IMG/VR virus record: IMGVR_UViG_3300025168_000619
Span: 1 to 24,987 of that record
Source of the DNA: a virus
Strand: one strand, 5' to 3'
Length of the DNA: 24,987 nt
Position 1 is the stretch's first letter; every line of letters begins with the position of its first letter. The notes under the pieces were generated by a model that was not told the DNA's origin, searched no databases, and saw nothing but the letters and a program-made list of their open reading frames with translations. Below, one piece after another: positions 1 to 17,247 of the stretch. Position numbers and translations under genes: made by a program.

Positions 1-549
1 ATACTCACCAACAAACGGTGCCGGTAAGCGCCACATCTCAGCTTTAGGATTGATGCCCCAATCTTTAGCGGCTTCTTGTAATAATTTTTCATTCTTACGC
101 ATGCCAATATAATCTTTACCAATAGAGTCTAGAGTGTAACTAAATCTATTTTCGTTTATCAAACTTGCAGCTATCATTGTATCAATAATACCACCGCGTA
201 CTTGAAAACCTAGTGACCTAATCCAGGACACATCATACATAGCGTTGTGAAATATTTTTGTTGCATCGGTATGTAAAACTTCTTCGAACCAATCTAAGAC
301 TAATGCGCGGTCCATGTTCCCACCGCCTTCATGCGCTATCGGAAAGTATCCGGACCAACCTTCAACTGCAACGGCAATGCCGACTACTTCTCCATCTCTT
401 CTTATCGCACCAGATCCTTGTGTCATTAGATTTGGATCACGTGTCTCTAAGTCAATAGCTATTTCAGTATGACTAGATAAGTCGGGTAATCTTTGTGGTG
501 GTACCCATTCTGTTTCAGGTGTGAATAATGGTTGCTGTAGTGTTCTCAA
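1..549 (-). CDS. Family A DNA polymerase, N-terminal 3'-5' exonuclease part (partial)
   Basis: This partial gene runs off the left edge; 183 codons are visible with no stop. The protein has the DnaQ-like proofreading fold: ExoI is IAIDLETRDPN (D33, E35), ExoII is HNAMYDVSW (N102, D106), and the last residues FVGEY sit where ExoIII normally begins. It starts directly with the proofreading domain and has no 5'-3' exonuclease domain, as in T7-type phage polymerases. The polymerase palm would lie outside the window, so the family A call rests on the exonuclease domain and the replication context. The start is inferred to be TTG at 549: an in-frame TGA lies only five codons upstream, no ATG precedes ExoI, and the TTG overlaps the previous stop as TTGA, with a GAGAG stretch upstream as a possible ribosome site. 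A stand-alone exonuclease is the main alternative. Confidence 0.8.
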   Translation of the reverse strand, partial: MRTLQQPLFTPETEWVPPQRLPDLSSHTEIAIDLETRDPNLMTQGSGAIRRDGEVVGIAVAVEGWSGYFPIAHEGGGNMDRALVLDWFEEVLHTDATKIFHNAMYDVSWIRSLGFQVRGGIIDTMIAASLINENRFSYTLDSIGKDYIGMRKNEKLLQEAAKDWGINPKAEMWRLPAPFVGEY

Positions 550-755
550 CTGTAGTCTCTCTCAATTATCATTTCTATAAAATGTTTCGCTTTCTCGAGG
601 CTCTCTTTGCCTCCCTTATCTTGATGTCTAACTATATACTTTATAGCAGAACCTTCGGCGAATAACAACTTGTTTTTATTGATGAATTCGCTGGGCTGTA
701 TCTTATATTTTTTGTAATGATTACCGCCAACTTGTGTTTTATATGCATTTACCAT
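546..755 (-). CDS. DUF3310-like small phage protein
   Basis: This 69-aa protein carries the signature of the DUF3310 family: QVGGNHY near residues 8-14, a QPSEFI segment, and then AIKYIVRHQDKGG followed by a helix with KA and FIE. Family members are small proteins in many phage replication regions, sometimes labelled nucleotide kinase-like, but their function is not established. The start is well supported: AGGAGG lies 6 bases upstream of ATG 755, inside the 3' end of the HNH gene, which it overlaps by 7 bases. Its stop overlaps the TTG start of the polymerase gene, so the two are probably translationally coupled. The family is clear to me from the sequence; any role in nucleotide supply is only inference. 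Confidence 0.8.
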   Translation of the reverse strand: MVNAYKTQVGGNHYKKYKIQPSEFINKNKLLFAEGSAIKYIVRHQDKGGKESLEKAKHFIEMIIERDYS

Positions 756-1240
756 ACCATTCCTCCTGTAGAATACATTCTTCTGTCTTCTCTTTTGTTT
801 CGTTCATAGTGCTTTCTTAGTATGATCATACAGTCAGCAACACTAACACTATTTTTTCTGTCATTAAAATCCCAACGACAAAAAACAATATTATTTTTTG
901 TGTAACCAACATCAGAATCAAAACGATCAACTGATAATAAATCAGGCGGCGCTGAGTGTCTTTTCTTTGCACCTTTGATAGCTAGTTTTCTACCTATGAT
1001 AAAAGGCTTACCGGTGTAATAACATTTCCAACCATATTTTTCTTTGTGTTCTTCCCACAATTCAAAAAATTCTTCTCTTGTTAAATCATTTTTTAAATCT
1101 TGCAACTTACCTTGTTTTCTTTGTTGTATTCTTTTTATTCTTTTACTGATATCACCCCATTTGCTTATTAAGAATCCGCTTTCCGTGTTTAAGTATTGAA
1201 TGTTTTGAATTCTTGCTTTTTCTTTATTTCTTGTTTTCAT
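749..1240 (-). CDS. HNH-type endonuclease-like protein
   Basis: The 163-aa protein has a lysine/arginine-rich N-terminal half (about residues 1-50) that could bind DNA and a C-terminal HNH-like core. The core contains C73 in WKCYYTGKPF, then SVDRFD (103-108), GYTKNN (112-117), C121, and N126 with K129. The DR-x-D, GYT-x-x-N, N-x-x-K order is typical of a phage HNH subgroup in which the first histidine is replaced. It overlaps the helicase by ATGA and the DUF3310-like gene by 7 bases, so it is fully integrated in the operon. AAAGGAG lies at a normal distance upstream of the start. It may be a homing-type nuclease or a repair or recombination nuclease; the sequence does not decide, and I see no split gene next to it. 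Confidence 0.72.
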   Translation of the reverse strand: MKTRNKEKARIQNIQYLNTESGFLISKWGDISKRIKRIQQRKQGKLQDLKNDLTREEFFELWEEHKEKYGWKCYYTGKPFIIGRKLAIKGAKKRHSAPPDLLSVDRFDSDVGYTKNNIVFCRWDFNDRKNSVSVADCMIILRKHYERNKREDRRMYSTGGMVW

Positions 1241-2754
1241 AATACATAACTCCTTTCATAGCTCCTTGGCTCTAATATATGTAAAGATTTCTTTGCTCGT
1301 GTTACTGCTACGTAAAACAAACGATGTAATTCATCAGGATTAATATCATCGTGATCAGCAGCAGACTTGGTAATATCCGGTAAAACTAAAACATTATCAG
1401 CCTCACCACCCTTTGCTGCATGTATAGTTGACAATATTATTCTTGGTGTCTGTGAAATTTTTTCTTCATTAGCTAACATATTACGTATGTAGTTTTCTGT
1501 TTCTGCATCTAACCCTGCAAACGCTTTGTACCAAACCTCTTTCGTTTGTAATCCATGATCCGCGACGCATTCTTCAATACCATATCCTATTTCTTCATCG
1601 CTCATAGTTTTAGCAGTGCGATAACCTTTGGTTACATTATCTCCCAGGTACGAATAAATATTCTTTATTGATGCCACCGGTAAAGTATGCTCTAACTTGC
1701 GCCACTTCTCCCAGGTTTGTATTGCCAATAACAAATCTAATTTAATTGAGTTTCTATGTTTATGTGCGTAGTACCAACCTTGCAACTCACATAGGTCTTT
1801 GATGTCATCAAGAAAATGATTCGCTGATGACAACACTAACCACTGTCCTTGTGACATATCAACTTGAGTAACGTCAGTGTATCTTGCCAAGTTACCCAAC
1901 TCTTGTCTTGGTAAATAATTTTTTTCATATCTATTAGATACATTTCTAATTATGCTTTGTGATAGTTCATGTATTGGCCCACCAGGTATACGATAAGATT
2001 GATTTAAAGTATCAACATGGTCTACTTCTTCCTTAAGTGCGATAAAAGTATCAACATCAGCTCCAGCCCATTTAAATATCGCCTGATCATCATCCCCAGC
2101 AATGTAGGTTTTGTTTGCTTTCGCCCATAAAGACCTGACCATTCGCCATTGCAAAGGTGAGAGGTCCTGTGCTTCGTCAATAAATAATACGTCAAAAGAC
2201 GGAGATACATCTTGTCTAATAAATTTTTCCAACATGTCGTCATAATCAACGAGTCCTTTCTCTTGTTTATATTTCTTAAGTTCTTGATCTAAAAGATATA
2301 GTAAATCTCTTTCCACGTCCACATATCTATTATGCTCGTTCTTATCATATTGCTCCAATACAGGTATTTCTTTAACCCTTGCTTTATTTATCAATCTTAA
2401 ATATTCATTGTCAGAATTAAAAATACCATCTGATTCATTGTAAGACGCAACCTTAATTGGTATGCCACATTTCAAACCAAACTCTCTGTAGTCTTCAGGT
2501 TTCATTACCCGCTCTTTTTTAAGTCCAAGCATTTTAAATGCAAGAGAATGTAGTGTTCTGAAATAAGGTATCTCATCTTTATCTATCATAAATTTTTCTT
2601 CTGCTCTGCTGATAGCTTCGTATGCAGCTCTACGAGTAAAAGAAAAGTAACCTATCTTTTTTATGTCTGTGCCGGCGCGTAAAAACTCTTCTACTAAATT
2701 AAGTAGTGTTGTTGTTTTGCCTGTGCCTGGTGGTCCTAATATAATTGTTTTCAT
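1237..2754 (-). CDS. UvrD/Rep-like SF1 DNA helicase
   Basis: This 505-aa superfamily 1 helicase probably unwinds DNA during phage replication or repair. Visible motifs in order are Walker A GPPGTGKT (7-14), motif Ia FSFTRRAA (38-45), TLHSLAFK (67-74), VDYDDML (169-175), Walker B DEAQD (193-197), motif III GDDDQAIFKWAGA (220-232), motif IV NQSYR (251-255), motif V TIHAAKGGE (443-451) and motif VI VAVTRAK (482-488). It is shorter than cellular UvrD (about 700 aa) and begins almost at Walker A. The N-terminal Q motif of UvrD is missing, and an in-frame TGA seven codons upstream shows it is not hidden by a wrong start. The start overlaps the primase stop as TAATG and the stop overlaps the HNH start as ATGA. 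The motif IV coding segment is part of a direct repeat with the giant virion gene. Confidence 0.93.
   Translation of the reverse strand: MKTIILGPPGTGKTTTLLNLVEEFLRAGTDIKKIGYFSFTRRAAYEAISRAEEKFMIDKDEIPYFRTLHSLAFKMLGLKKERVMKPEDYREFGLKCGIPIKVASYNESDGIFNSDNEYLRLINKARVKEIPVLEQYDKNEHNRYVDVERDLLYLLDQELKKYKQEKGLVDYDDMLEKFIRQDVSPSFDVLFIDEAQDLSPLQWRMVRSLWAKANKTYIAGDDDQAIFKWAGADVDTFIALKEEVDHVDTLNQSYRIPGGPIHELSQSIIRNVSNRYEKNYLPRQELGNLARYTDVTQVDMSQGQWLVLSSANHFLDDIKDLCELQGWYYAHKHRNSIKLDLLLAIQTWEKWRKLEHTLPVASIKNIYSYLGDNVTKGYRTAKTMSDEEIGYGIEECVADHGLQTKEVWYKAFAGLDAETENYIRNMLANEEKISQTPRIILSTIHAAKGGEADNVLVLPDITKSAADHDDINPDELHRLFYVAVTRAKKSLHILEPRSYERSYVL
1989..2017 (-). repeat. 29-base repeat, copy A (in the SF1 helicase gene)
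   Basis: This segment matches 15779-15807 at 28 of 29 positions; the only difference is at 2006 against 15796. It encodes helicase residues about 247-256 (VDTLNQSYRI), which include motif IV. Confidence 0.85.
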
Positions 2755-4271
2755 TAAAAAGGTGTTTCCTCATATTTTATGGGACTAATGGAGGGCGTTA
2801 TTTTTTTCATAGCTTTTATCTTAACTAGATGTGGCTGCTGATCCTTAACCTTTAGTCTTGTCTCTTTTTGGAAAATATCATCTAAGCTCTTGAGTAAGTT
2901 TCCTGTCTTAATTCTATCCATCTCCCAATTGTTTCTTTTGCAAAATGCATAAAAGTCATCCATTCTAAAATAAGTATGGTCTTCATCAGTCCAAGCTAAC
3001 TTGCTCAAAATATCATCTCTAGTTCTTGCTTGTGGTCTATTGACTGTAAACTCATGTAATAAATTTATCAGATGTTCTTTTGGATCAAGAGATTTTAATG
3101 GCTCTATTTCTTGCATACCCAATAGTAAAGGTTTTAGGTATACTTCACGCCAATCTTTTGGTTTAGGTATGGGTACTACCACAGCAGCTTTGTCCATAAC
3201 CTCCAAAGAAAATAAATTAGGATTGTGTAATTGTTCTTTTGTTAAATCAACTCTCTTACCATCCACGTCTAAAAAATATTGCGATGGGTCAGAACATATT
3301 TTTGACAAAGTTCCTAACTCTGGCATTTGTTCTTCTTCAAAACCTACACCAAACTTTTTGGTTCTACATTTTGCAGCATTGCAAGAACCACAGATAGGTT
3401 GTTCTTTACAACGATACTTATCATAGCCACGTTTACCAATAGACTTAATAATGTTTTGTACCTCTGCAGACTTTAAAGGTGGATTCATGTGCTTATAATT
3501 ATCGTCTTCTAATAAGTCTTGCCAATCATCGGGATTAGATTTTTGTCTGTAAATAGCTAAATTAAATAATGCATTATTGCGAGAGCCCTCACCAAAACCT
3601 TCTTCAGCTAGTTTGTTTAAACAAGGAGGACCATCTTTGAATGCTTCAACAACCTCTGTCTTCTTTATAACAATTGCTTCTATTTGTTCTCGTGTCTGCA
3701 CCCATTCATCATAAATAGAATAGAATGATTCTAAACTAGCAGCCTCACCACCAGCCGTAAAAGTATAACGCAAACCTCTAGTGCCAGCATGATATGGTAG
3801 GTTTAAAAAATTTCCGGTGTCACCACGTTCAACTAATATCTCTGTTTGTTTTGGAAATATTTCACTACCTGAATAACCTAACGCCTCCGCCATTGCTTTA
3901 AGTTTAGACTGCATTAATGATGCAGGAATAAAATCTTTAGCAAATAAAAATAAATGTGCTCCACCAGATTTTGACCTAAAGGTCACCAATGGAAACCCCA
4001 TGCCTTTTATATTACGCATGATAGTTAAATGATCTAAGTTATATATATCAACATCAATGCAACCCCATTTACACATGTTGCTTTCGTTAATAGGTATAAC
4101 ACCAAGAGCAGGTTCTTTACCCTCAATATGATCAGACCATAATTGATCTGTAACTTTTTCTCTTTTAATTAAAGCTTTGGCAACAGCTTTACCTTTTTCA
4201 GTAACTTCACCAGTTAGTTTCATTATGCCATAGGCACTGTTGTTACCCTCAAATATTTCTTGAAACTTCAT
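2754..4271 (-). CDS. Archaeo-eukaryotic primase (TOTE/PrimPol-like)
   Basis: This 505-aa protein is a likely primase or primase-polymerase that makes primers for phage replication. The catalytic D-x-D is in CIDVDIYN (D73, D75), the S-x-H-type motif is KSGGAH (H106), and EIFPKQTE (137-144) plus GNFLNLPYHAG (153-163) resemble the conserved blocks of TOTE-type AEP primases. A PriCT-like helical region follows (about 228-285), then a four-cysteine metal site (C288, C294, C297, C302). The C-terminal part (about 400-490) resembles a winged-helix region like that at the end of D5-type proteins. There is no fused helicase; the separate SF1 helicase directly downstream may supply that activity. The start overlaps the zinc-ribbon gene stop as ATGA. 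Family membership is fairly sure; biochemical activity is inferred. Confidence 0.82.
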   Translation of the reverse strand: MKFQEIFEGNNSAYGIMKLTGEVTEKGKAVAKALIKREKVTDQLWSDHIEGKEPALGVIPINESNMCKWGCIDVDIYNLDHLTIMRNIKGMGFPLVTFRSKSGGAHLFLFAKDFIPASLMQSKLKAMAEALGYSGSEIFPKQTEILVERGDTGNFLNLPYHAGTRGLRYTFTAGGEAASLESFYSIYDEWVQTREQIEAIVIKKTEVVEAFKDGPPCLNKLAEEGFGEGSRNNALFNLAIYRQKSNPDDWQDLLEDDNYKHMNPPLKSAEVQNIIKSIGKRGYDKYRCKEQPICGSCNAAKCRTKKFGVGFEEEQMPELGTLSKICSDPSQYFLDVDGKRVDLTKEQLHNPNLFSLEVMDKAAVVVPIPKPKDWREVYLKPLLLGMQEIEPLKSLDPKEHLINLLHEFTVNRPQARTRDDILSKLAWTDEDHTYFRMDDFYAFCKRNNWEMDRIKTGNLLKSLDDIFQKETRLKVKDQQPHLVKIKAMKKITPSISPIKYEETPF

Positions 4272-4414
4272 TTCTTTGCTTTAGGTCTCCCTACCGGGTT
4301 ACCTGTGCTTGGCTTTTGCCATTTAGGTTTACACACTTCTGTGCAATATATTTTACCTTTTTGCCATTTAGTTATTTCAAATGTTTCTAAACATGTTGGA
4401 CAAATCTTTTTCAT
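4268..4414 (-). CDS. Small zinc-ribbon protein (48 aa)
   Basis: The protein has CPTC (residues 6-9) and CTEVC (24-28), which together make a plausible four-cysteine zinc ribbon. They are followed by a basic tail with GRPK, an AT-hook-like element. I chose ATG 4414: AGAAAGGA lies about 11 bases upstream, and all recognisable sequence follows this methionine. The frame is open further upstream to 4528, but that extension would overlap the SSB-like gene and translate straight through a strong hairpin, so it is unlikely to be coding. The stop overlaps the primase start as ATGA, suggesting a role in the same DNA transaction, possibly DNA binding. No specific function is recognised. Confidence 0.7.
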   Translation of the reverse strand: MKKICPTCLETFEITKWQKGKIYCTEVCKPKWQKPSTGNPVGRPKAKK

Positions 4415-4444
4415 TTCTTTTATTTTCCTTTCTAGTATAGTTAC

Positions 4445-4477
4445 GGAGCCCCATAGAGGGGGGAATCTAGGGGCTCC
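4445..4477 (-). other. Strong intergenic RNA hairpin after the SSB-like gene
   Basis: GGAGCCCC (4445-4452) pairs with GGGGCTCC (4470-4477), and TAGA (4454-4457) pairs with TCTA (4466-4469). One base is bulged at 4453 and the loop has 8 bases. In the minus-strand transcript the loop reads UUCCCCCC. The element begins 7 bases after the SSB-like stop and sits ahead of the zinc-ribbon gene's ribosome site. No U-tract follows it, so it does not look like a classical Rho-independent terminator. A processing site, an mRNA 3'-end stabiliser or a control on downstream translation fits better. Confidence 0.75.
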
Positions 4478-4484
4478 ACCATGA

Positions 4485-5246
4485 TTAAAATGGTACGTTG
4501 TCTTTTGACTTTGTCTCACCTTCACCATGTTTTACTTGAACTTGGTTATTACCAACGCTCATAGCAAACTTCTTTGCAGTCTCATACGTTATTTTATCTT
4601 GTACGGGACCAACCTTTTCAATGGCCCAACCAAACCAAGTGCCCTTGTCATTTGATTGCTGCACTGTGCTTAACTTATACACGTGACTGTAAGCAGCCGG
4701 TGTGAATAAACCATCTTTACCTTCAAGTTTGATGGTATTCATCATTGTATTCCACGACCGACTTACTTTTAATTGTGTCGATTTCATGGTAATCAATGCT
4801 TGTTGCGTATCCGGCAACATTACAAAATAAGAAGCTGTGTTCTCTAAATAGTTACCATTTGGTAATCTATCTTTATAGTCAGCTCCTCTTGTAGTATCAT
4901 CTATGATACCACTTCCTACAGAGTGCGTAGCTACGGGAGCACTTGTGCCCTCGCCTCTATCACTCCACTCAACGTATTCGCGCTTATAACCGCATGGTAT
5001 TACGTTGACTCCCTCTACACCATCATATGCCTGCTTAGTCGCGGTATTAAATATCATACCTGCCTTAGCACCTTGTACATACTTGGCATCCCTTTCGTTT
5101 ATCTCAGGGCTTAGCTGTCCTAGTACGCGTAGAAAAGGCATGGCAAAATCGCCTGACTTCATCTCCTCCATACCACCAGCTTGGTCTTGTTCAAACATGC
5201 CTGTTAAAGCCATGTTTGTCTTTTCTCTTTTTGCTACTTGATTCAT
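4485..5246 (-). CDS. Probable single-stranded DNA-binding protein (phage type)
   Basis: This 253-aa protein ends in KSKDNVPF, which matches the acidic-to-hydrophobic tip (D-x-x-PF) that SSB proteins use to recruit partners. The middle is beta-rich with aromatic residues (for example YKREYVEWSD and SYFVMLPD), compatible with an OB-like fold, but I do not recognise an exact bacterial SSB domain. It sits among the primase, helicase and polymerase genes, as expected for an SSB. I chose ATG 5246 because AAGGAGAA lies just upstream; the ATG at 5267 would put that ribosome site inside the coding sequence. It could instead be another replication or recombination protein with an SSB-like tail. A strong hairpin follows the stop and may affect its expression. 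Confidence 0.62.
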   Translation of the reverse strand: MNQVAKREKTNMALTGMFEQDQAGGMEEMKSGDFAMPFLRVLGQLSPEINERDAKYVQGAKAGMIFNTATKQAYDGVEGVNVIPCGYKREYVEWSDRGEGTSAPVATHSVGSGIIDDTTRGADYKDRLPNGNYLENTASYFVMLPDTQQALITMKSTQLKVSRSWNTMMNTIKLEGKDGLFTPAAYSHVYKLSTVQQSNDKGTWFGWAIEKVGPVQDKITYETAKKFAMSVGNNQVQVKHGEGETKSKDNVPF

Positions 5247-5273
5247 GGTTCTTTTCTCCTTTTTCATGATTCG

Positions 5274-5831
5274 TTATTTCCGGCCTATCTTGGTTTGATC
5301 TTTCACAAAAGTGTGAAAGAATTCCGAGGGCATATCGAGGCCGGCCTCAATACGCTCCCGGTAGAGTGCTTTCAGAGTCATAGGCTCGACCTTCTGCTTC
5401 TGTGAAGGCTCATAGCCTTCTCGCACTGCAAGGCCTAGCAATTGCTCTGCCTTGGTATCCTCGCCCTTCCCGAACTGTACGGCAACCTCATTTTTAATAA
5501 TGTCACCTAGTCCGTTATTACGAAGCCATTCAAAAGCTGATTCCAATTCATCTTTTTTAATTGAGCAGTTGTAAGATTTTTTAATATCTACAGAACTGCC
5601 ATCAGCTAATTTCAAAGACGCCAATCCCTGCTCTGCAAGTAGGTTTGGTATTATCTCTGAACTAATCTTGTCTGCTTTTTGTTTTTTAAATTTAATTTGT
5701 TCTTCTAATCCTTCTATCTCATCCTCATAAGATTGTAGTTCCTGACAGTAAGCGGCTAGTGTTTGTATGTCAGTCTTTTCTATAAGTTCCTGTTGGTCTT
5801 CTTCAAAATCAATATTGGTAATATTACTCAT
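5274..5831 (-). CDS. Coiled-coil phage protein of unknown function
   Basis: I do not recognise this 185-aa protein. Residues about 10-60 form a charged heptad-like coiled coil (ELQSYEDEIEGLEEQIKFKK). A short beta-like segment (LASLKLADGSSVDIKK) and a helical C-terminal region ending in KTKIGRK-like basic residues follow. The general layout recalls phage Gam-like or recombination accessory proteins, but no diagnostic motif is present. Its place just upstream of the SSB-like gene suggests a role in replication or recombination. The start has ATAGGAG 6 bases upstream, and it overlaps the previous gene by 8 bases. The 3' third of the gene is markedly richer in GC than the rest, by my hand count about 50% over 5281-5520 against about one third over 5521-5700, and carries palindromes, so it may be mosaic. 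Confidence 0.6.
   Translation of the reverse strand: MSNITNIDFEEDQQELIEKTDIQTLAAYCQELQSYEDEIEGLEEQIKFKKQKADKISSEIIPNLLAEQGLASLKLADGSSVDIKKSYNCSIKKDELESAFEWLRNNGLGDIIKNEVAVQFGKGEDTKAEQLLGLAVREGYEPSQKQKVEPMTLKALYRERIEAGLDMPSEFFHTFVKDQTKIGRK
5300..5319. repeat. Perfect 8-bp inverted repeat inside the 185-aa gene
   Basis: CTTTCACA at 5300-5307 is perfectly mirrored by TGTGAAAG at 5312-5319 across a 4-base loop. It lies in the last codons of the 185-aa gene. It can fold as a tight RNA hairpin or act as a symmetric protein-binding site; no function is evident. Confidence 0.6.
5337..5348. repeat. 12-bp GC-only core palindrome (GAGGCCGGCCTC)
   Basis: This is a perfect palindrome containing the rare octamer GGCCGGCC, set in a phage whose surroundings are strongly AT-rich. 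It lies 17 bases from the inverted repeat at 5300-5319, inside the GC-rich 3' third of the 185-aa gene. Confidence 0.6.
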
Positions 5832-6225
5832 TTGTGCTCCTATTTAAATTAAATGATAGTGGATAATATCTTCTTTCTTGTCTGTCCCACTTTAACAGAT
5901 TAAACATTCCTGTGTACTCAGCAACAATAGCTGTAGACAATCCTATAATTGCAGGATCACCTGTGCACAAAATAAAATCTGTTTCTTTGAAGTCACGTAA
6001 ATTTTTTCGCATCTTATGTATAAAAGGTGCGGGACTAAACATCATTTGTGAATTTTCTGGTAAACAAATTACCAGGTATCCAAAATCAGATGCCGATAGA
6101 ATATTTATATTTTGTGGTGGATGTTGTAACACATACACAAAATTTTCTTCTGGGTTTTCTTTTACAAACGCTAAAAAATTAGTTAGGCTTTTCGGTTTGT
6201 ACAGTTCGAATATTTGATTCTTCAT
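5824..6225 (-). CDS. Hypothetical phage replication-region protein (133 aa)
   Basis: I do not recognise the family. The protein begins MKNQIFELYKPKSL and contains alternating hydrophobic segments (FVYVLQHPP, YLVICLP, DFILCTGDPAIIG, STAIVAEYTG) ending in LKWDRQERRYYPLSFNL. That pattern suggests a small alpha/beta soluble domain with no clear membrane span. I chose ATG 6225 because GAGAAAG precedes it and the longer reading frame from 6258 has no good ribosome site. It overlaps the 61-aa gene upstream by 47 bases and the 185-aa gene downstream by 8, so it belongs to the early or replication operon. WDRQERRYYPL recalls a short W-[DE]-R-x-x-x-x-Y-Y-x-[IL] pattern seen in other phage early proteins, but I cannot assign a role. 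Confidence 0.6.
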   Translation of the reverse strand: MKNQIFELYKPKSLTNFLAFVKENPEENFVYVLQHPPQNINILSASDFGYLVICLPENSQMMFSPAPFIHKMRKNLRDFKETDFILCTGDPAIIGLSTAIVAEYTGMFNLLKWDRQERRYYPLSFNLNRSTNE

Positions 6226-6364
6226 TATTTTCTTTCTCTGGTTCAGCATTAGCTGCATTAAGTTTATCTGTCAAGTCATCAACTTGAATATTTAAATTAA
6301 TGATGTCACTACTGCTTTTTTGAAGCAACTTTAATAGCGATTGTATTATCTTATCTTTATCCAT
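6179..6364 (-). CDS. Small charged protein, first gene of the replication operon
   Basis: The 61-aa product from ATG 6364 is a charged, mostly helical protein. A hydrophobic heptad-like stretch (IIQSLLKLLQ to LNIQVDDLTDKL) suggests a short coiled coil, followed by a polar tail rich in N, E and K. AGGAG lies 7-8 bases upstream of ATG 6364, which makes this a better start than 6391. It is the first gene after the divergent promoter, and such a position often holds a regulator, but no DNA-binding motif is visible. Its 3' end overlaps the next gene by 47 bases in another frame. Confidence 0.6.
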   Translation of the reverse strand: MDKDKIIQSLLKLLQKSSSDIINLNIQVDDLTDKLNAANAEPEKENNEESNIRTVQTEKPN

Positions 6365-6384
6365 TTTCTTTCTCCTGTTTATGG

Positions 6385-6413
6385 TTGACATTTAACATAG
6401 TGATTATTATATT
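6385..6413 (+). promoter_or_regulatory. Sigma70-type promoter for the SNF2-like gene
   Basis: TTGACA (6385-6390) matches the -35 consensus perfectly. A 17-base spacer separates it from TATATT (6408-6413), which matches 5 of 6 bases of the -10 consensus. Transcription would start near 6420, leaving only about a dozen bases before ATG 6432. It overlaps an opposing promoter. Confidence 0.7.
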
Positions 6414-6421
6414 AATGTCAA
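6394..6421 (-). promoter_or_regulatory. Opposing promoter for the replication operon
   Basis: On the minus strand TTGACA occupies 6421-6416, and a weaker -10 candidate TATGTT (6399-6394) follows after 16 bases. Transcription would begin near 6387, just upstream of the AGGAG site and ATG 6364. The two -35 boxes are arms of one inverted repeat (TTGACATT at 6385-6392 and AATGTCAA at 6414-6421), so the opposing promoters physically overlap. Confidence 0.5.
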
Positions 6422-6431
6422 GAAAGAAAAT

Positions 6432-7880
6432 ATGATAAAACATTATAAGTTTAAAACCAAGCCATACGAGCATCAAATGGAAGCTTTGGAAAAGTCCTGG
6501 GCTTCTGATACATATGCTTTATTTATGGAAATGGGCACCGGTAAATCCAAGGTCCTCGTTGATAATATAGCTATGCTCTATGACAGAGGCGCGATCCGTG
6601 CTGCTCTAATCATAGCACCAAAAGGTGTGTATAAAAACTGGGATGCCATAGAGTTTCCGGTGCATTTACCGGACCACGTCGAACACACTAAAGTATTATG
6701 GGAAGCAAGTATTACTAAGAGAAAACAAATGGAACTTGATACTTTGTTTGACGGTAAAGAAGACCTTAAGATATTGATAATGAACGTAGAAGCATTTTCT
6801 ACAAAGAAAGGACTGGACTTTGCACATTCTTTCCTTAACATATTCCTTGGCAGAGCTTTGATAGGGGTTGATGAATCTACCACGATCAAGAATCCGACAG
6901 CAAAGCGCACAAAAAATATTTTAACACTAGGGAATCTTGCTAAGTACCGTAGAATATTGACAGGCTCGCCAGTTACCAAGTCACCACTTGACTTGTTTAG
7001 TCAATGTAAGTTCCTAGATCCTTATCATTTAGGTTATGATTCATACTATGCGTATCGTTCTAGATATGCACACATGTTAGAAAGAAACTTTGGTGGTCGC
7101 CGCGTGCAAATTGTCGGCAGCTATCGTAGGTTAAGTGAACTTACAACAAAACTAGAAAAATTTTCTTATCGTGTACTTAAAGAAGACTGTTTAGATTTAC
7201 CGGAAAAAGTTTTTACAAAAAGATTAATAGAACTAACTGATGAACAGAAAAAAATATACGATCAAATGAAACAAATGGCTCTTGCTATTCTTGATGATGG
7301 CAAGATGATGTCAACTATGAATGTAATGACACAACTAATGCGATTGCATCAAGTTACTTGTGGTCACTTCAAAGCTGATGATGGTACAATCACACACCTA
7401 AAAAACAATAGACTTGACTCACTGATGCAACTTCTTGAAGAAACTGAAGGCAAGGTAATTATTTGGGCAAACTATGTTGAAGACATAAAAAATATAGTCG
7501 CTTCGTTAAAAAAAGCTTACGGAGAAGCCTCTACAGTGGAATATCACGGTGGGGTGGATGCTAGGGTCCGCCAGGAGCAAATTGCTCTATTTCAAGAGAA
7601 AAAGGGCCCTGCACGCTATTTTGTTGGAAATGCACAGACGGGAGGGTACGGAATTACCCTGACTGCAGCCAACACCGTAATATACTATTCCAACAACTAT
7701 GATTTGGAAAAAAGACTACAATCAGAAGACCGAGCACATCGTATCGGCCAGACTGGCAGTGTTACTTATGTAGACTTAATTGCAGAAAAGACTATAGATG
7801 AACGCATAGTCAAAGCACTACGGAGTAAAATAAATATAGCTAATGAAATTATGGGAGAAGATATTAAAGACTGGATCTAA
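6432..7880 (+). CDS. SNF2/DEAD-type helicase-like ATPase
   Basis: This 482-aa superfamily 2 ATPase is the only gene on the plus strand. Motifs in order are a Q-like YEHQ near residue 12, Walker A MGTGKSK (34-40), motif Ia IIAPKGVYKNW (60-70), Walker B DEST (147-150), motif III TGSP (177-180), motif IV-like KVIIWANY, motif V TGGYGITLTAANTVIYYS, and motif VI SEDRAHRIGQ (431-440). This is the compact phage SNF2/SSL2 form, without the bromo-, chromo- or SANT-type accessory domains of cellular remodellers. It probably remodels protein-DNA or branched DNA in replication or recombination, or acts against host DNA-bound proteins. It has its own promoter and its stop overlaps the convergent endolysin stop by 4 bases. 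The motif set is unambiguous; the role is inferred. Confidence 0.93.
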   Translation: MIKHYKFKTKPYEHQMEALEKSWASDTYALFMEMGTGKSKVLVDNIAMLYDRGAIRAALIIAPKGVYKNWDAIEFPVHLPDHVEHTKVLWEASITKRKQMELDTLFDGKEDLKILIMNVEAFSTKKGLDFAHSFLNIFLGRALIGVDESTTIKNPTAKRTKNILTLGNLAKYRRILTGSPVTKSPLDLFSQCKFLDPYHLGYDSYYAYRSRYAHMLERNFGGRRVQIVGSYRRLSELTTKLEKFSYRVLKEDCLDLPEKVFTKRLIELTDEQKKIYDQMKQMALAILDDGKMMSTMNVMTQLMRLHQVTCGHFKADDGTITHLKNNRLDSLMQLLEETEGKVIIWANYVEDIKNIVASLKKAYGEASTVEYHGGVDARVRQEQIALFQEKKGPARYFVGNAQTGGYGITLTAANTVIYYSNNYDLEKRLQSEDRAHRIGQTGSVTYVDLIAEKTIDERIVKALRSKINIANEIMGEDIKDWI

Positions 7881-8338
7881 AGAAGTATGTTTTCGTATTT
7901 GGTCTTCGCTTCTACTTTGCTCGCTTTTAATATTTGTTTTCTCGATCCTGACTTCACCACTGAACAGTGCACCCAACCTGAATTTGGATCCCCTTCATTA
8001 TAAAACTCCAGAATTAATTGATCGAAATCTGTATTTTTACTAATCCAAGTTGCAAGCTCCTTGTTGTCAACACCATGAATCTCGAAGTCTGCTGCCTCAC
8101 CCTTGGCATGTTGTGACTTAGCCGAAGACCCGATAGCCTCGCACAACGCTGGGCTTCGATAGCCTGAGGATATAGCGACCGGTTTACCAAAGTGCTCACG
8201 CACTGGTTGCAGGACAGTCTCCGCTAGGTGAATAAGATTTTCTATGTGCGCTGTTGATGGTTTATTATCTATACCTTTGCGCGTTGCAGTTTGAGATTTT
8301 GTCATCTCTGCTAGTGAAAAATTATTTGATAGTTTCAT
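7877..8338 (-). CDS. Endolysin, M15-family zinc peptidase
   Basis: This 153-aa protein is a peptidoglycan peptidase of the M15A type. The characteristic SGYRSPALCEAIG lies at 58-70. The zinc ligands are H77 and D84 in HAKGEAADFE and H124 in GWVH, and E111 in LILEF is the likely catalytic acid. There is no signal peptide, so export would depend on the adjacent holin-like protein. ATG 8338 is chosen because it forms TAATG with the upstream stop and the family homology begins there; an in-frame ATG at 8407 would only add residues overlapping the upstream gene. It uses a TAG stop and converges on the SNF2-like gene. It would cleave peptide cross-links or L-Ala-D-Glu stems; the exact bond cannot be told from sequence. 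Confidence 0.9.
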   Translation of the reverse strand: MKLSNNFSLAEMTKSQTATRKGIDNKPSTAHIENLIHLAETVLQPVREHFGKPVAISSGYRSPALCEAIGSSAKSQHAKGEAADFEIHGVDNKELATWISKNTDFDQLILEFYNEGDPNSGWVHCSVVKSGSRKQILKASKVEAKTKYENILL

Positions 8339-8598
8339 TACATTATACCTATCACCATTTCTAAAAAAATTAAAGCTACAGCCCCCACTGTAGATAAAAC
8401 AACCCAATAGATTTTATCTATCTTACCGCCCAAAGCTTCTACGTCTGCGTGTACGTGTGTAATTTTTTCATCTAGATGTTTAAGATGGTTAGTTTTTATA
8501 ATATCAATCTCACGTTCAACACCTTTGATGTGACCGTAGAGAGAAATAATATGTTCTCTATCATCTTCTGGTACTATGCCTTTTACTGTATCTGTCAT
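8338..8598 (-). CDS. Holin / XhlA-like lysis protein
   Basis: This 86-aa protein has a charged, coiled-coil-prone stretch (about residues 25-62, including HLKHLDEKITHVHADVEAL) followed by one strongly hydrophobic C-terminal segment (about 65-86, YWVVLSTVGAVALIF) that should span the membrane. This layout matches XhlA-like and other single-TM phage lysis proteins that work with an endolysin. It sits directly upstream of the endolysin and shares a TAATG junction with it; its own start also shares TAATG with the giant virion gene. GAGGGG precedes the start. The topology is clear, but the sequence alone does not show whether it forms the pore itself or helps another holin. Confidence 0.75.
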   Translation of the reverse strand: MTDTVKGIVPEDDREHIISLYGHIKGVEREIDIIKTNHLKHLDEKITHVHADVEALGGKIDKIYWVVLSTVGAVALIFLEMVIGIM

Positions 8599-11500
8599 TA
8601 AGCAACCCCTCTTTGTCTTTGTCTAATGGCTTGTTCTCCCGGAGATAGTAGTGCAGTTTCTGTTGTTGTCAATCCGGTTGTTTGATCTACGTTTGCAACT
8701 TCTGGTTGAACTACAGGAGCTCCTGTGTCAGGTAGTGGCGCAACTTCTGGTTCTGCAGCTATCTGTGTTGGTGTTTCTACAGTTCTTTGAATTGGCGTTT
8801 GTGATAATTCTTCTCTTTCCATAGCTTTAAATGTTACACCTTTCCATTTACTTTTTATAGCCTCTAACATACCCAAAGGAATGAAGTATTGATAATTAAA
8901 TATTCTTGGATCAAGATCTTTATTGTTTCTTAGTATTTTATCTTTTCTAGACTTAAGACCCTCACGTCCGTATGAAAGTGGTGTAAACCTACCATTCATT
9001 AACATTATAACTTTAGTAGGTATACCCTCTGAACCAGGAGCTATTCTTTTTTTAAGGGCCAGCATAATTTGATTTCTAGTCATTAAACCAGAATCTATGG
9101 CAGCCATGGCTGCTTTATAAAACTCATATTGTTGTCTAAATAATTGTTCATTTTGTTCGTTATATTCTTTGGCTAATTGTTCTGGTCCACGTGATCTAAA
9201 GTTTTTAGTATCAAAATATTTTTTACCTACTTTTGCTTCTCTAAATGCTTGCTGGAAACTAGATATTTTAAAATCTAAACTACCTGGAATATCTATAGTT
9301 ACATTGGATCCACCCATTAGTTTAAATATTTCTGTAACTACTTCTAAGGGTTGTCCAACACCAGACACATCACCACGAGCCGCATGAAATAATTTTCTAC
9401 CAGAGCTAATAAGCCCCGGTTCAATAGTCTTGAAGAAATGTCCCATGGCTCTATCAAATATTTCTGTGTCTGTCATTCCCTTACTCCATATTGACGAACC
9501 TTGTCTTGTTTTACCGGTGTACGCTTCTATAAATGCTTCAGCACCAATTGGTATACCAAAGAAGGTTCCGGTTACAGAATCATACAAAGGACCAACTGCT
9601 TCTAAATATGTTTTAAGTGTGTTTGTTTGTATTTTATCAGGATCAAGTGTTGGACCAAACTTCATTCTAATTTTTAATTCTTTCATTTTGCTTCTAAGAG
9701 CTTTAGCTGCATCACTTGATGGATCAAGTTGAGCGTACTGTTCTTGTAAAGCAACAAGTTCTTTAGAATAATTGTTACGATCAGCAACCTTCATCAATTG
9801 TCTACCACTTGCAACTATAATGTCATACGGATTGTATCTAGAAAAATCAAACACTTTAAATGTTCCATTTTCAACATTTGATACTGGTATTAAGGAGCTG
9901 TACTTCATATAGTCAGGTGCAAAATATTCTTTGTACACATCTACTTGTGTTGGTGTTACGTTTGTAAGTGCATGTCCTAGACCAGACACACCAGCAGTCA
10001 TACCACCAAGAGTGATTGCTTGACCACTTAACATTCTATAACCCATTTCTCTTAAGGCTTGATTGTTTGACGCAATATGTTTCATGGCTATAGAGGAAGT
10101 AGCAAAACCAGTTCTAAGTATTTCGGATGTAAATGATACAAAGTTACCAATAGGCAGCTTTCTTATAGCTTTAATAAATTCAGGCACTTTACTGTATGTT
10201 GGATAAGTCTCTCTAAGTAAATAAGCTGCAGCTTCTTCTATGCCTTCATCCAAAGTTTTCATAGATCCAGTCATAATATTTTTTGGATTAAACTCTATGC
10301 CGTGAAGATTAAAAAATTTGGTAACGTCTTGTACGTTTTTAAAACCACCTTTAAGTTGTGACATGTAGTATTCATGTCCATACCATTTCCACACATTATC
10401 ACCACCTGCATATACTCGTGTGGCTTGTTTGTAGAATGGGGTTTTTTCTACTCGTTCTGCAAGTTTGCCTAATGATTGTAGTTTACCTGCTTTAATATCT
10501 TTTAATATAGCACCAAGCTCTGATGCCACAATATTCTCATCAAGCACACCAAGTTCTATTTTTCTAGAGATTCTTTTTATAAGATCAACTTCGTTTACAG
10601 TTCTACCTGCACCAAAGATATCATCTAGGGTTATCTTAAACGCATCAGTTACAGAAGCAGAACCACCAATGTGCCCAACATGCATAGGAAAGAAACCAGC
10701 ACTACCAAAGTTACGTGTTTGTGTAGCAGGAGAAAAAACTGTTTTACCTGTTTGTACTGCTGCTTTGTACGCAATTGCTGATTGGTAAAAACTATTTTGT
10801 AAAAGGTTATCAAGCATACCACCCGTGCCTTCTACTGTTCTTCTCAACTCATTGGATGCATACAAACCAATTGGACCGCCCTTATCACTAGTCATAAGTT
10901 CTTTCATTTGTCCTAATCCAGGTAGATCACCTATTGTTGTAGGATTGGTTACTCCAGCAGCAAGAGCCTCTGCTCTTGTAGTAAATAAATAACCATTCTC
11001 TAAACCGTGACGAGCAAATTCTTTAAAACTTTTTAAGTTTGCTGTTTGAGATACCAAACTACCTGTTGTTGTCATTACGGATGATCTTAAATTTGTTTCT
11101 TGACCAAGAAGTTTTCTAATGACAGCTGGCAACTCTTCACCTGTATTTAAAAAAAGTTGATCGTCTCTAATTATTTCTCTGTTTATTGTATTTAATGCGT
11201 TGATAGGATCTGTGCCTTCTCTTTTTCCAATTGAAATAATATTGTCTACGTTTTTTCTAGCAAACTCTCTAATTGCTGCTGCCTGTTCTGTTACCGGCAC
11301 ACCTTTAACAGCGGCTTCTAAAAAGTCTTCGTTCTTACTTATGATGTTAACCATAAAATCTGTAGCATCTTCAAATACTTTTGAACTAGGGTTATAATTG
11401 GGGTTGGTAAATGTTGCAAAAGACATACGTATATATTTATCTAAGTTACTTTCAAGAGCGTTTCTAAGACCACTACCTTCTGGTAATTCTTTAAAGTATG

Positions 11501-14500
11501 TTTTTTTAATTGCTGTAAATTCGTCTTTTAATGCTTTTGCTAATTCTTGTAATTCTGGTTCTATCTTAGATAATTTTAAATTACCCCTTAGATATTCGTG
11601 CACTTGATCCATAAGATGTTTTTCACCAGCAGGAGAAGTAAAACCTTTGTTATACCTACCTAAAAAACCACTTGCTAAATCATAAGCTTTTACTTCTATG
11701 GCATCTATATATTTTTCTATTTCTCTTGCTTTTGATTTTATAAATCTTTCTGCGGTACCATCTAAGTTAAAGGAATATGCAATTTGATTACCACTATCTC
11801 GAAACCATTTAAGAAAATTATCTACTCTTTTTAAACCTGCTTCTAAAGGATCCTTAGAAGTTACATCAAACATTCTCCATTTACTTAATTCAGGAAGTTG
11901 TCCGTAGTTACCTTTTAAAGAAGGGATTAAAGCTTTACCCCCAGTTGCAATGGTAGCACCCACACGTGCTAAAATATCTTTACCTAAAAACTTTCCAAAT
12001 GCACCAACACCTCTTGCTACGCTTGGCAACACTACATCATCTTTTGATGCTAAATAAGTTGCAGCTTTTATTGGAACATTTACAGCTTTTAAACCAATAG
12101 AACCTACAGCTAATGCCGGTTTTAATAAAACTTTTTTACCAACCGCACCTAAAACTGGTCCAGCTAATGGAAACAAACCACCAATCATAGCGCCTTCTGC
12201 ACCAAAACGTAATCTGTTTCTAAAGTTTGCAGCTACTCTTTTTTTACCACTCATTCCAGTAGTGTCTTCATATTCACCAACATATTTTGATGTTAATAAA
12301 GGATCATCAAACATTTCAGATATTGTATTGTAAGGACCACCAGCAATAAAATCACCTGCTCCAAAAGAAACCATTCCACTGCCAACTCGTTTTGCAACGT
12401 TTGATACTTGCACACCTAGTTTTGGTAAGCCTTCAAGAGCGTATGTTTTTTGTGTAAATAAATTTACCTTACCCCCGGTTCTCGCTGCAGTAAACTTTCT
12501 AAATCTGTTTATTAGTTTAAAGGCAATACCACCTGGTATACCAAACTCAAGAGCAACAGAAGCTATTTGACCTACAAATGTTTCTGGTTTCGATAAATCA
12601 GCATTTTCATATCTTCTTTTTAATTCATCAGTAAATTCTGTTGGTAGCACAGCATCAGGAATGGTGAATAATAAATCACCTACATTAAAAGCAAAGTTAG
12701 TAACTCCTGTTTCTATAACCCTGTTTACTTCACTTACTGCAGATATGTAGTCTGCTTCTTTTGGTGTAGACTTTGCACCACCTACTCTAAAACTTTCATT
12801 TACAGCATAAAGACCCGGATATTTTTCTTTCATTTCAATGTCATTTTCTTCACCAGATCTAATACCATTGTACAAAAACTCAATTACTTCTAAACCTGCA
12901 ATCTGTGGTCCTCCGGGAGCATTTAGGAAAGAAGATGCTTCTATTAATGGACTTTCTGTTACAAGTTTAGGTAAATCACTAAACTTAAATTTAACTGGTT
13001 GCGGTGGGTTTAATTTTTCTTCAAGAGTTTTTGCTATGTCCTCTCTATATAGTTTTATTCTCTTATAAGCTTCGTCAAAAGATTTCCGAGCATCTACCGA
13101 ATATATGTTTAATATATCTTGTTGTGTATTTTTAACACTTTGATCTATGGCATATTTAGCGGTTCCAGGTATTTCTCCTGCAGCTAGTTTTGCTTGTATG
13201 TTTTCAAAAGTAAAAAAGTCATCTTCCTCTTCTTCTTGAGAACCTTCTTGAAATTTTTTTCTATTATAAGTTTCTGCTTTTTTAGCTCCAAGAGGTACAA
13301 ATTCTCCTCCAACTTTACTTTCTTTAAATATCTTATCAAGTTCTTGTTTAGATACATAAAGAGAAGAATCTATAATTTGTTCTACGTTCATTTTTTCAAA
13401 CACATTGTCGATAGATGTTAGTTTATTTGTTTCTCTGTTTATTGCAGGTGATAATTCAGCACCTATTCTACCGTCAACGGTTTCAAGAGTTAAACCAAAT
13501 TTTTTATAAAAATCACTAATTGCTTTTTTATTTTTTATCACTTCAGGTTGTTTACTATTTTTGTTTTTTTTAAAAAAAGCCTCAACAGCGTTATTAAAAC
13601 CTTGATTAATTCTAGCAGGTGATATTAATATATTACCAGGAAACATTATATTTCTTTTTTCTGATGAGACAGGACTTATATGAAAAATATCAAACAAACC
13701 TTTTTGCGTTAACTCTTTAGCTTTTGTAAGAGTAATAGGATCTTTTGTGTCTATTACTCCATTTACTAGTTTAGCATTTAACAACTCCATAAAAGTTTCA
13801 TTTTCTAAAATTTTTTCTGGGTTTTGTGCATAATATTTATTTGCTATTGTAACTTGTCTATCTTGCCTTCTTACAATTTCTAACTCTTCACTATTTAAAT
13901 ATTTTTCTGCTTGTTTAATTCTTGCTTGTCTTAATTTACCTGATGCACTAGGGTCAGCTATTGGTTTAATTAAATTTTGTTGTCTAATTAAAAAATTATT
14001 AACTCTTTCAACTTGTGCTATTGTGTACGGTGTTGCTTCACCAAAATATTTTTCAGCAAGCATGGTATTTGTACCATTACTTTTTGGGTTATTGTATATA
14101 TCTTTTAGATCAACAATATACTTTTCTTCCATTCCTTTTGGAAAATCTACCTGAGATATTTTTTCATTGCCTTTTCCTGTTTCTAATCTACGTGGTGTTG
14201 GTACAAGAACATCTTCATTAGCTCTTTTTGCTGCATAAGTCTCTTTAGCTCTGTCACTTTGTACCTTACGTAATTCTTCAGGATTTAATTTTGCAAAAGT
14301 ATTTGGGTAGTATTTTCTAACAATATTTTTAATACGTTCTTTACTTCCTGAAGGTAACTCTAAATCGTCTAATAATTTTCTTAAAAGTAAAGGATTACCT
14401 TCTTGTTTAAGATTATCTAAATATTCAAATATTTTTTTATTTTCTGGTTTTGCAATTGTAACACTTATATCTCTAGTTTGATCAGCAACTGCTTTATCAT

Positions 14501-15890: not shown

Positions 15891-15891
15891 G

Positions 15892-17247
15892 TTAAACCGC
15901 CTGTGTTTGTGCTGGTAATACTAAGTCTGCGTTATATTTTTGATTAAATCTAGAAAGATCATCTGGTGTTTGTATTTGTGCAAAGTCTATTAAGGCTTGT
16001 TCACTGGTAGATAAAAGTCTTACAACTGAATCACTAACTTCTTTTGGTAATCTTGCTCTAAGTTCTTCGTAATTTAGAGGTGAAGTTTGTTGTGGTGCAG
16101 AAGCCTGCATAATTGGTGGTGAACCTGGATCAGGATCGGGACCACTACCTGGTTCAAAAGGTGGGCCTGGTAATGGAATTGCATTTGGCATGTCTGATCC
16201 ACCATTAGCGAAACCAATACGACCACCATCTGCTTTAAACTCTGTTCTTAACGGTTCAGATTTACCGCCTCTAGACCACCAAGATAAATCTTCTTGAGGT
16301 ATGGTATAGGTAGGATCAAATTCTGGTACAAATAACTTGTCTGGTAACAAGTTATCTATTTGAGCTTTAGCCATTATAGCTGCAATTTCGTTTCCAGTTT
16401 TACCTCGATATTCAAGTGGTCTATCTGCATCAGGAAGTAGCGCCATTTGAGAAGCATTTGATTGTAAGATTTCATTTTTAATTAAATCCGCTAATGCTTT
16501 ATCTTTTATAGAATTCTTATCTGTGGTTAGTTGTTCTAATTGATTAATAGCTTGTTGTCGTCTAGTTTTGTCATCATTAGTTCCTTTAGGATTGGAACCT
16601 CTAATTATATTCTGTAGTATTAATGAGTCTTGTAATACAGCCTCAACTTCTAATCTATCTAGTTCTTGTAGTTTAATTTGTGTTTGCAGTTCCCATGCAG
16701 CAATTTTTTCTGACGACGCTATGGTTGCAGAATGTTGTGTCGCTTCTTGGTCTAATTGATCTTGTGTTATTTCTGCTTGTAGTGTTGTTGTTGCGCCTTT
16801 GCCTTGAAGTTCTGCTGACGTAGCTGCTGTTTGTAATAAAGCTTTTCTTCTTTCGCCTTCAATTTCTGCTCTTCTATTAAGTTTTAATTGATTAGACGCA
16901 TCTAATTCAGTTGCAAATTGTCCAAAAGCCGGCGCGTTTCTTTGTGCAAAACGAGCAAAGCCTGAACCAGTATTAGGTGATGCCAATATGTTAGAACCTA
17001 GCCTTGCAAGTGACATGTATTCAGATAAACCAAACCCTGGTTTAGCATAATCAGGCAAGTCTTCTGGAAATAAATCATCAGTGGCTTGACCTAAGTCTGC
17101 TACTATTTGATTTTGTTTTTCTTGATACTCAGTCATGTAGTCTTTTTGTGTGCCTTCATCAAATTTTTCTCTTTCAAAACCAGACACAATACCACTATTG
17201 ATGTCGCCACCCATTTTAAACATAGGTCTTTTAAATATTTTACTCAT
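15892..17247 (-). CDS. Virion-associated protein with GGRIGF motif (451 aa)
   Basis: The protein is probably an internal or structural virion protein; the exact family is not recognised. Residues about 115-290 form a long Q/A/E-rich helical region (TTLQAEITQDQLDQEATQHS, LQTQIKLQELDRLE). A loop with DGGRIGFANGG follows (GGRIGF at 341-346), and then a Pro/Gly linker (PGPPFEPGSGPDPDPGSPP). A small C-terminal helical domain carries YEELRARLPKEVSDSVVRLL. Near the N-terminus FKMGGDINSG and REKFDEGT (R26-D30 core) resemble short modules in the 384-, 705- and 2430-aa proteins. Its start shares TAATG with the 384-aa gene, placing it in a coupled block of internal virion genes. A role in DNA ejection is inference from neighbours. 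Confidence 0.65.
   Translation of the reverse strand: MSKIFKRPMFKMGGDINSGIVSGFEREKFDEGTQKDYMTEYQEKQNQIVADLGQATDDLFPEDLPDYAKPGFGLSEYMSLARLGSNILASPNTGSGFARFAQRNAPAFGQFATELDASNQLKLNRRAEIEGERRKALLQTAATSAELQGKGATTTLQAEITQDQLDQEATQHSATIASSEKIAAWELQTQIKLQELDRLEVEAVLQDSLILQNIIRGSNPKGTNDDKTRRQQAINQLEQLTTDKNSIKDKALADLIKNEILQSNASQMALLPDADRPLEYRGKTGNEIAAIMAKAQIDNLLPDKLFVPEFDPTYTIPQEDLSWWSRGGKSEPLRTEFKADGGRIGFANGGSDMPNAIPLPGPPFEPGSGPDPDPGSPPIMQASAPQQTSPLNYEELRARLPKEVSDSVVRLLSTSEQALIDFAQIQTPDDLSRFNQKYNADLVLPAQTQAV

Follow-up and report, generated by a model that had tools for sequence, protein, structure and literature searches.

A conserved inverted repeat as a probable bidirectional promoter with crossed elements at the divergent helicase junction of a pelagiphage fragment

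Gene content of the window and its divergent junction

The DNA analysed here, which we call the window, is the stretch of 24,987 bases at positions 1-24,987 of the IMG/VR record IMGVR_UViG_3300025168_000619. Among its plausible genes a single one, encoding an SNF2-type helicase, is read rightward, so that the junction ahead of it is the sole divergent one, in agreement with a preliminary description of this sequence. The leftward genes, from 6364 down, also include an HNH-like protein and DUF3310. The genes that matter for the present analysis are the following:

6432..7880, + strand: SNF2-type helicase (SNF2-rel_dom, E 6e-21; Helicase_C, E 2e-14)
6179..6364, - strand: 61-aa ORF, the first leftward, without a family match; AGGAG ribosome site at 6372-6376
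5824..6225, - strand: Pam3 gp32-like protein, the first conserved gene of the leftward operon (PF23992, E 7e-27)
5274..5831, - strand: Pam3 gp33-like protein (DUF7307), family match
4485..5267, - strand: Pam3 gp34-like protein, family match
2754..4271, - strand: archaeo-eukaryotic-type primase with PriCT-1, family matches
1237..2754, - strand: UvrD-type helicase, family matches

The ATG at 6364 is preceded by a leader of about 22 bases with the AGGAG site, and the helicase gene by one of about 11 bases with an AGAAAG-like site. The 61-aa ORF appears to be accessory: in many relatives the gp32-like gene begins right at the junction, and the promoter element described below is retained.

The annotated phage with the closest helicase was 023Pt_psg01 (66% amino acid identity), and HTVC027P (57%) and HTVC023P (47%), phages of SAR11, the commonest bacteria of the ocean, were among the next closest. 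Both HTVC027P and 023Pt_psg01 are annotated with a similar leftward gene order, followed by DNA polymerase A. The related helicase, the primase, the UvrD helicase and the shared gene order place the window, judged by its sequence, as a fragment of an HTVC023P-type pelagiphage whose PolA gene lies outside the window.

Some further features were recorded. An HNH/endonuclease VII-like protein (749-1240) gave PHROG matches to a decoy of host sigma70 (E 5e-6) and to the Srd anti-sigma factor (E 5e-4), both weaker than the endonuclease matches of the same protein. The helicase stop overlaps the stop of a leftward ORF (7877-8407) by four bases (7877-7880), and leftward late transcripts could thus cross the helicase gene antisense into the replication operon. 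An Rfam search of the window returned zero matches. Predicted terminators were about as numerous in the window as in shuffled sequences, and we give them no interpretation.

The inverted repeat and its conservation

An inverted repeat, TTGACATT-21-AATGTCAA, spans 6385-6421 (37 bp) between the helicase gene and the leftward replication genes. Its 8-bp arms lie exactly where the preliminary description put them. Single copies of TTGACATT are ordinary in the window (40 matches with at most one mismatch, against 41.7 expected). The pair TTGACATT-N15..27-AATGTCAA occurs once in the whole window, and 100 dinucleotide shuffles did not produce it; even the shorter form TTGAC-N20..32-GTCAA has the 6385-6421 pair as its sole instance. 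The elements read from the repeat are:

6385..6392, + strand: left arm, TTGACATT, whose initial hexamer (6385-6390) serves as the rightward -35 box
6408..6413, + strand: rightward -10 box, TATATT, at a spacer of 17
6420, + strand: predicted rightward transcription start, 7 bases past the -10 box and inside the leftward -35 box
6414..6421, - strand: right arm, AATGTCAA; 6416-6421 are the leftward -35 box, TTGACA
6394..6399, - strand: leftward -10 box, TATGTT, at a spacer of 16
6387, - strand: predicted leftward transcription start, 7 bases past the -10 box and inside the rightward -35 box

Since each predicted start falls inside the -35 box of the other promoter, both promoters occupy the same DNA. 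They had been described as facing into each other; the promoter elements do cross, but the transcripts predicted from 6420 (rightward) and 6387 (leftward) diverge.

When sigma70-type hexamers 16-18 bp apart were scored, the rightward site, TTGACA-17-TATATT, matched at 11 of 12 positions and the leftward one, TTGACA-16-TATGTT, at 10 of 12. Among the 57 sigma70-like matches within positions 1-20000 the former was the best, and the latter tied with others for second. The 57 matches do not exceed the mean of 66 in shuffled sequence, and therefore a promoter match alone means little and the case rests on conservation. The sites can also be read in the form of the Sinorhizobium sigma70 motif, given as CTTGAC-N17-CTATAT in the accessible part of its source (PMC2873474): 6407-6412, read as TTATAT, fits CTATAT at N17, and the window becomes TTGAC-N17-TTATAT on the + strand and TTGAC-N16-CTATGT on the - strand.

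Searching IMG/VR for relatives of the helicase yielded 101, of which 80 were kept and 78 include the junction; L069 and L070 were dropped as beginning within the gene, without a junction, and the same applied to L248, L251, L364 and L365. TTGA...TCAA at 36-38 bp was present in all 78 junctions of these viral contigs, and TTGAC...GTCAA in 71 (54 at 37 bp, 16 at 36 and one at 38). A leftward ORF starts near the junction in each of the 78. The repeat is also carried by 023Pt_psg01, where, as in the window, a reading of the whole sequence gave one copy.

Mean pairwise identity over 23 non-redundant junctions was 0.92 for the arms, compared with 0.50 for the 4-fold codon sites of the helicase gene, 0.50 for the flanks and 0.47 for the middle, which indicates constraint on the arms and not on the whole region. 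The -10 boxes were far less conserved than the arms (0.59 and 0.49). In E. coli the reverse holds, the -10 being conserved more than the -35. The excess conservation of the arms could mean that they serve another protein.

The -10 boxes are nevertheless phased. With simple -10 patterns at 16-17 bp, chosen once the alignment had been seen so that the counts describe rather than test, a phased rightward -10 was found in 18 of 24 non-redundant junctions (mean 1.7 with the middle shuffled), a leftward one in 16 (2.7) and both in 12 (0.2). The remaining 12 junctions fail to match both patterns, and two of them, L071 and L073, match neither. Scored by spacing across relatives, the leftward -10 peaked sharply at 16 bp. 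The rightward -10 was TATATA or TATATT at 16-17 bp, in most relatives TATATA rather than the TATATT of the window, often without T at -7 and with weaker E. coli-style scores. Single-base indels do not shift the main spacer classes away from 16 or 17 on either strand.

The two arms vary independently. The left arm is often TTGACT where the right arm stays TTGACA, and when right-arm letters were shuffled among sequences, no covariation appeared at arm positions 5-9; of the 14 positions tested, position 10 alone stood out nominally (p 0.008 and p 0.036 in two sets). Independent arms, together with -10 boxes each phased to its own -35, favour two promoters over one repressor dyad. The earlier proposal, in which each arm supplies the -35 box of one of two overlapping, divergently oriented promoters, thus gains support from the phasing on both strands and from conservation.

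The better-conserved -35 and the frequently missing -7T of the rightward promoter agree with published promoters of the Alphaproteobacteria, the class of the hosts, most of which, among those analysed, are reported to have no T at -7 (PMC8407463, in its accessible part). The literature searched, as far as its text was accessible, yielded no SAR11 promoter consensus, and the E. coli and Sinorhizobium forms were used for comparison.

Sister clades and the origin of the junction

The repeat had been expected to persist in relatives that keep the gene order. This held throughout the window's clade (78/78) and failed in the HTVC027P clade, which keeps the gene order and the rightward promoter without the right arm: the repeat was missing in 77 of 78 loci, L288 being the one that has it. 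TTGAC-N-TATATA was found in 76 of these 78 loci, 65 of them at spacer 17. It outlives the right arm, and the left arm therefore acts as a -35 on its own.

Junctions of the HTVC027P clade resemble that of the window in the divergent helicase/gp32-like order and in having promoter-like sequences on both strands. They differ in reading TTGACT-17-TATATA, with a leftward -10 that apparently overlaps the rightward -10. In HTVC027P itself the rightward pair would predict a transcription start immediately before the helicase gene. A possible leftward -35, TTTACT at 18 bp, was seen in 36 of 41 distinct junctions, a count that is suggestive only, as the box was the best choice when several shifts and spacers were tried. 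Two members of the clade (L271 and L278) have lost the divergent junction and carry a different gene upstream of the helicase; there, a rightward frame resembling the last part of a 2OG-Fe(II) oxygenase extends into the start of the helicase gene (at 2001). In the HTVC027P record (L201) another close divergent pair, gp20/gp21, lies at 11576, and there TTGACA-17-AATAAT begins at the opposite gene's start codon.

The HTVC023P clade (78 loci, 51 distinct junctions) and the DSL-LC04 clade (10 loci) are likewise without the full mirror repeat; the former, taken as background, showed the relaxed repeat pattern in 2 of 78 junctions. Annotated isolates of both clades have the divergent order, which in HTVC023P runs across the record ends. 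The DSL-LC04-clade junctions share with the window the divergent helicase/gp32-like order and promoter-like sequences on both strands, and differ in that 7 of 10 loci conserve a palindrome of the GTGTACACT type. This palindrome, AGTGTACACT in the seven junctions concerned (L376-L380, L384 and L385), could be a shared -10 acting on both strands.

On a helicase tree of 57 proteins, obtained after clustering at 88% identity, the mirror state requires at least four changes when all labels are counted, with deep forks that are weak (81/67 support; long branches). This state is located in the window's clade, in 023Pt_psg01, and in L071 and L288, which adjoin the HTVC027P clade. In Pam3, RHph_I65, FoX7, SH-Ab 15497 and LKO4 the helicase gene is codirectional with, and just upstream of, the gp32- and gp33-like genes (homology by PF23992 and PF23984 for four of these phages, and by name for Pam3), and in MW202510 it is codirectional with a primase and other genes. 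The pelagiphages and DSL-LC04 have it in divergent orientation. For the records compared here, the simplest account would be that the helicase gene was inverted, so that a single junction came to serve the genes on either side.

Interpretation and comparison with known bidirectional promoters

We interpret the 37-bp inverted repeat as a conserved bidirectional promoter, made of two opposed, overlaid sigma70-type promoters for the host RNA polymerase, and put the probability of this reading at about 0.74. The grounds are the repeat itself and its conservation, -10 boxes phased on each strand, arms that vary independently, and the conservation of the divergent gene order. With each -35 box sitting upon the opposite promoter's predicted start, a single polymerase, whichever way it faced, would occupy the entire element and shut out a second; mutual exclusion of polymerases is likely on steric grounds, because of this crossed geometry. 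Transcripts of the helicase and of the replication operon would then probably be made alternately from one site, and no regulator would be required. We likewise infer the start sites, activity in SAR11 cells, the steric competition and any effect on the helicase:operon ratio. The either/or switch of the preliminary description, in the sense of alternative stable states, is unsupported. As to the polymerase, HTVC027P is described as having no RNA polymerase gene and as depending on the host enzyme throughout (PMC12753301, in its accessible part).

Another reading takes the TTGAC...GTCAA pair for an operator dyad bound by a regulator of the phage or of the host, so that the likeness of the arms to promoter boxes would be secondary or shared. 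The arms are indeed more conserved than either -10 box, the half-site spacing is fixed at 36-38 bp, about three helical turns, and a small protein encoded by 023Pt_psg01 gives a weak ribbon-helix-helix (RHH) match (E 0.0023). Half-sites of a bioO- or tetO-like operator should change together; here, paired changes at positions 5-9 were no more frequent than by chance, position 10 alone being nominally high, and the HTVC027P clade retains one arm as a -35 with the other gone. The element is single-copy in the window and in 023Pt_psg01, and no CI/Cro-type repressor was found among the 44 mostly hypothetical proteins examined in the latter (with a second list giving the best 25 of 35 families). 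HTVC027P is moreover described as obligately lytic in the accessible part of PMC12753301. The arms that do not covary, the one-armed clade and the missing CI/Cro-type match in those 44 proteins weaken the earlier suggestion that the palindrome is a repressor site, and we consider it unlikely.

It is quite improbable that just one promoter works, the other arm being kept for some other role, such as a ribosome site or the surroundings of the start codon in the gene next to it, or as part of an upstream element. Such an account could draw on the leftward -10, which in relatives suits E. coli grammar better than the rightward one, and on the GTCAAGAAAG context, which overlaps the helicase leader; yet the right arm keeps its GTCAA as the distance to the helicase start codon goes from about 10 to about 30 bases, and the rightward TTGAC-17-TATATA survives the loss of the right arm in the sister clade. 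The genes on both sides need promoters, and in the window the gap offers no better sites than these. An origin of replication, or some other cis element heading the replication module, would suit an AT-rich, single-copy element that adjoins the primase operon, but it would leave the -10 phasing on both strands unexplained, sister clades with the same gene order are without the repeat, and no RNA family matched; we hold this to be very improbable. A chance match in AT-rich DNA has next to no probability. Although promoter-like sites are no more numerous in the window than in shuffles, and the 8-bp pair at any spacing is widespread in IMG/VR (at least 119 matches), the 67-base gap would be expected to contain about 0.0001 such pairs of 5 bp, and retention of the pair in 78 of 78 relatives already refutes chance.

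The IMG/VR scan also led us to reject the 8-bp pair as a signature. Among the 119 matches listed, spacings were scattered and 37 bp was unfavoured (12/119), so the pattern alone is no signature; a peak at 42 bp (27 of the 119 listed) looks like the coding sequence of one protein family. Also among the matches listed was a recurrent 34-bp repeat of related sequence, TTGACATT...AATGTCAA around a GGTAAC/GTTACC-like core, accounting for about 11 of the 23 of that length (L084, L109, L111, L120, L127, L135, L151, L156, L170, L180 and L185). Several of these read TTGACA-17-TATAAT, or close to it, on one strand, and the repeat may be another mirrored promoter, or an operator, in other phages.

At the bidirectional promoters of PMC12825309, in its accessible part, competition is reported to be little at basal activity and strong once one direction is strengthened, for instance by an improved -35 box. 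Both -35 boxes of the window's element are already consensus; polymerase competition is therefore plausible, and the element would be a candidate for competition without an activator. A more specific proposal, which we find possible and on the whole doubtful, is a repressor-free splitter: both -35s would be held at consensus, host polymerases would compete permanently, and sequence alone would fix the ratio of SNF2-type helicase to replication-operon transcripts, while the sister clades, with one arm lost, would have rebuilt bidirectional function with overlapping -10 boxes.

HTVC023P-type phages have been called the most abundant and widespread pelagiphages in viromes (PMC9599517 and PMC12753301, in the parts accessible), and the accessible text of the literature searched held nothing on their promoters. 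A natural element with two mirror-image consensus -35s offers a test of activator-free polymerase competition at bidirectional promoters; the E. coli examples of PMC12825309, as far as that text goes, showed no such competition at basal strength. The several promoter designs found at one conserved divergent junction form a series for studying how bidirectional promoters evolve.

In the pelagiphage-promoter and phage bidirectional-promoter literature, within its accessible text, we found no description of the present element. Bidirectional promoters of this general kind are documented in bacteria and are reported to be common between divergent genes (Warman et al.; PMC12825309, in its accessible part). 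As there, pseudo-symmetric DNA drives divergent mRNAs; the published promoters bind polymerase in two mutually exclusive orientations, and here exclusion is expected from the geometry. The published promoters share or overlap one -10, with starts that lie inside it or flank it and are 10-23 bp apart, commonly 10, 18 or 23 (PMC12825309). In the window, by contrast, the -10 boxes (6408-6413 and 6394-6399) do not overlap and none is shared, the predicted starts are separated by about 33 bp, and it is the two -35 boxes, each of consensus sequence, that mirror each other.

The bioA/bioB promoters of E. coli are overlapping and divergent within a palindrome of about 40 bp, to which the repressor BirA binds. 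The element described here resembles them in having overlapping divergent promoters inside a long palindrome; it differs in that the bio palindrome is repressor-bound, whereas the present arms vary independently and no repressor is known. The bioA/bioB pair is one of the five tested in PMC12825309, and we take the window's element to be a variant of this known class, a conserved bidirectional promoter with crossed elements.
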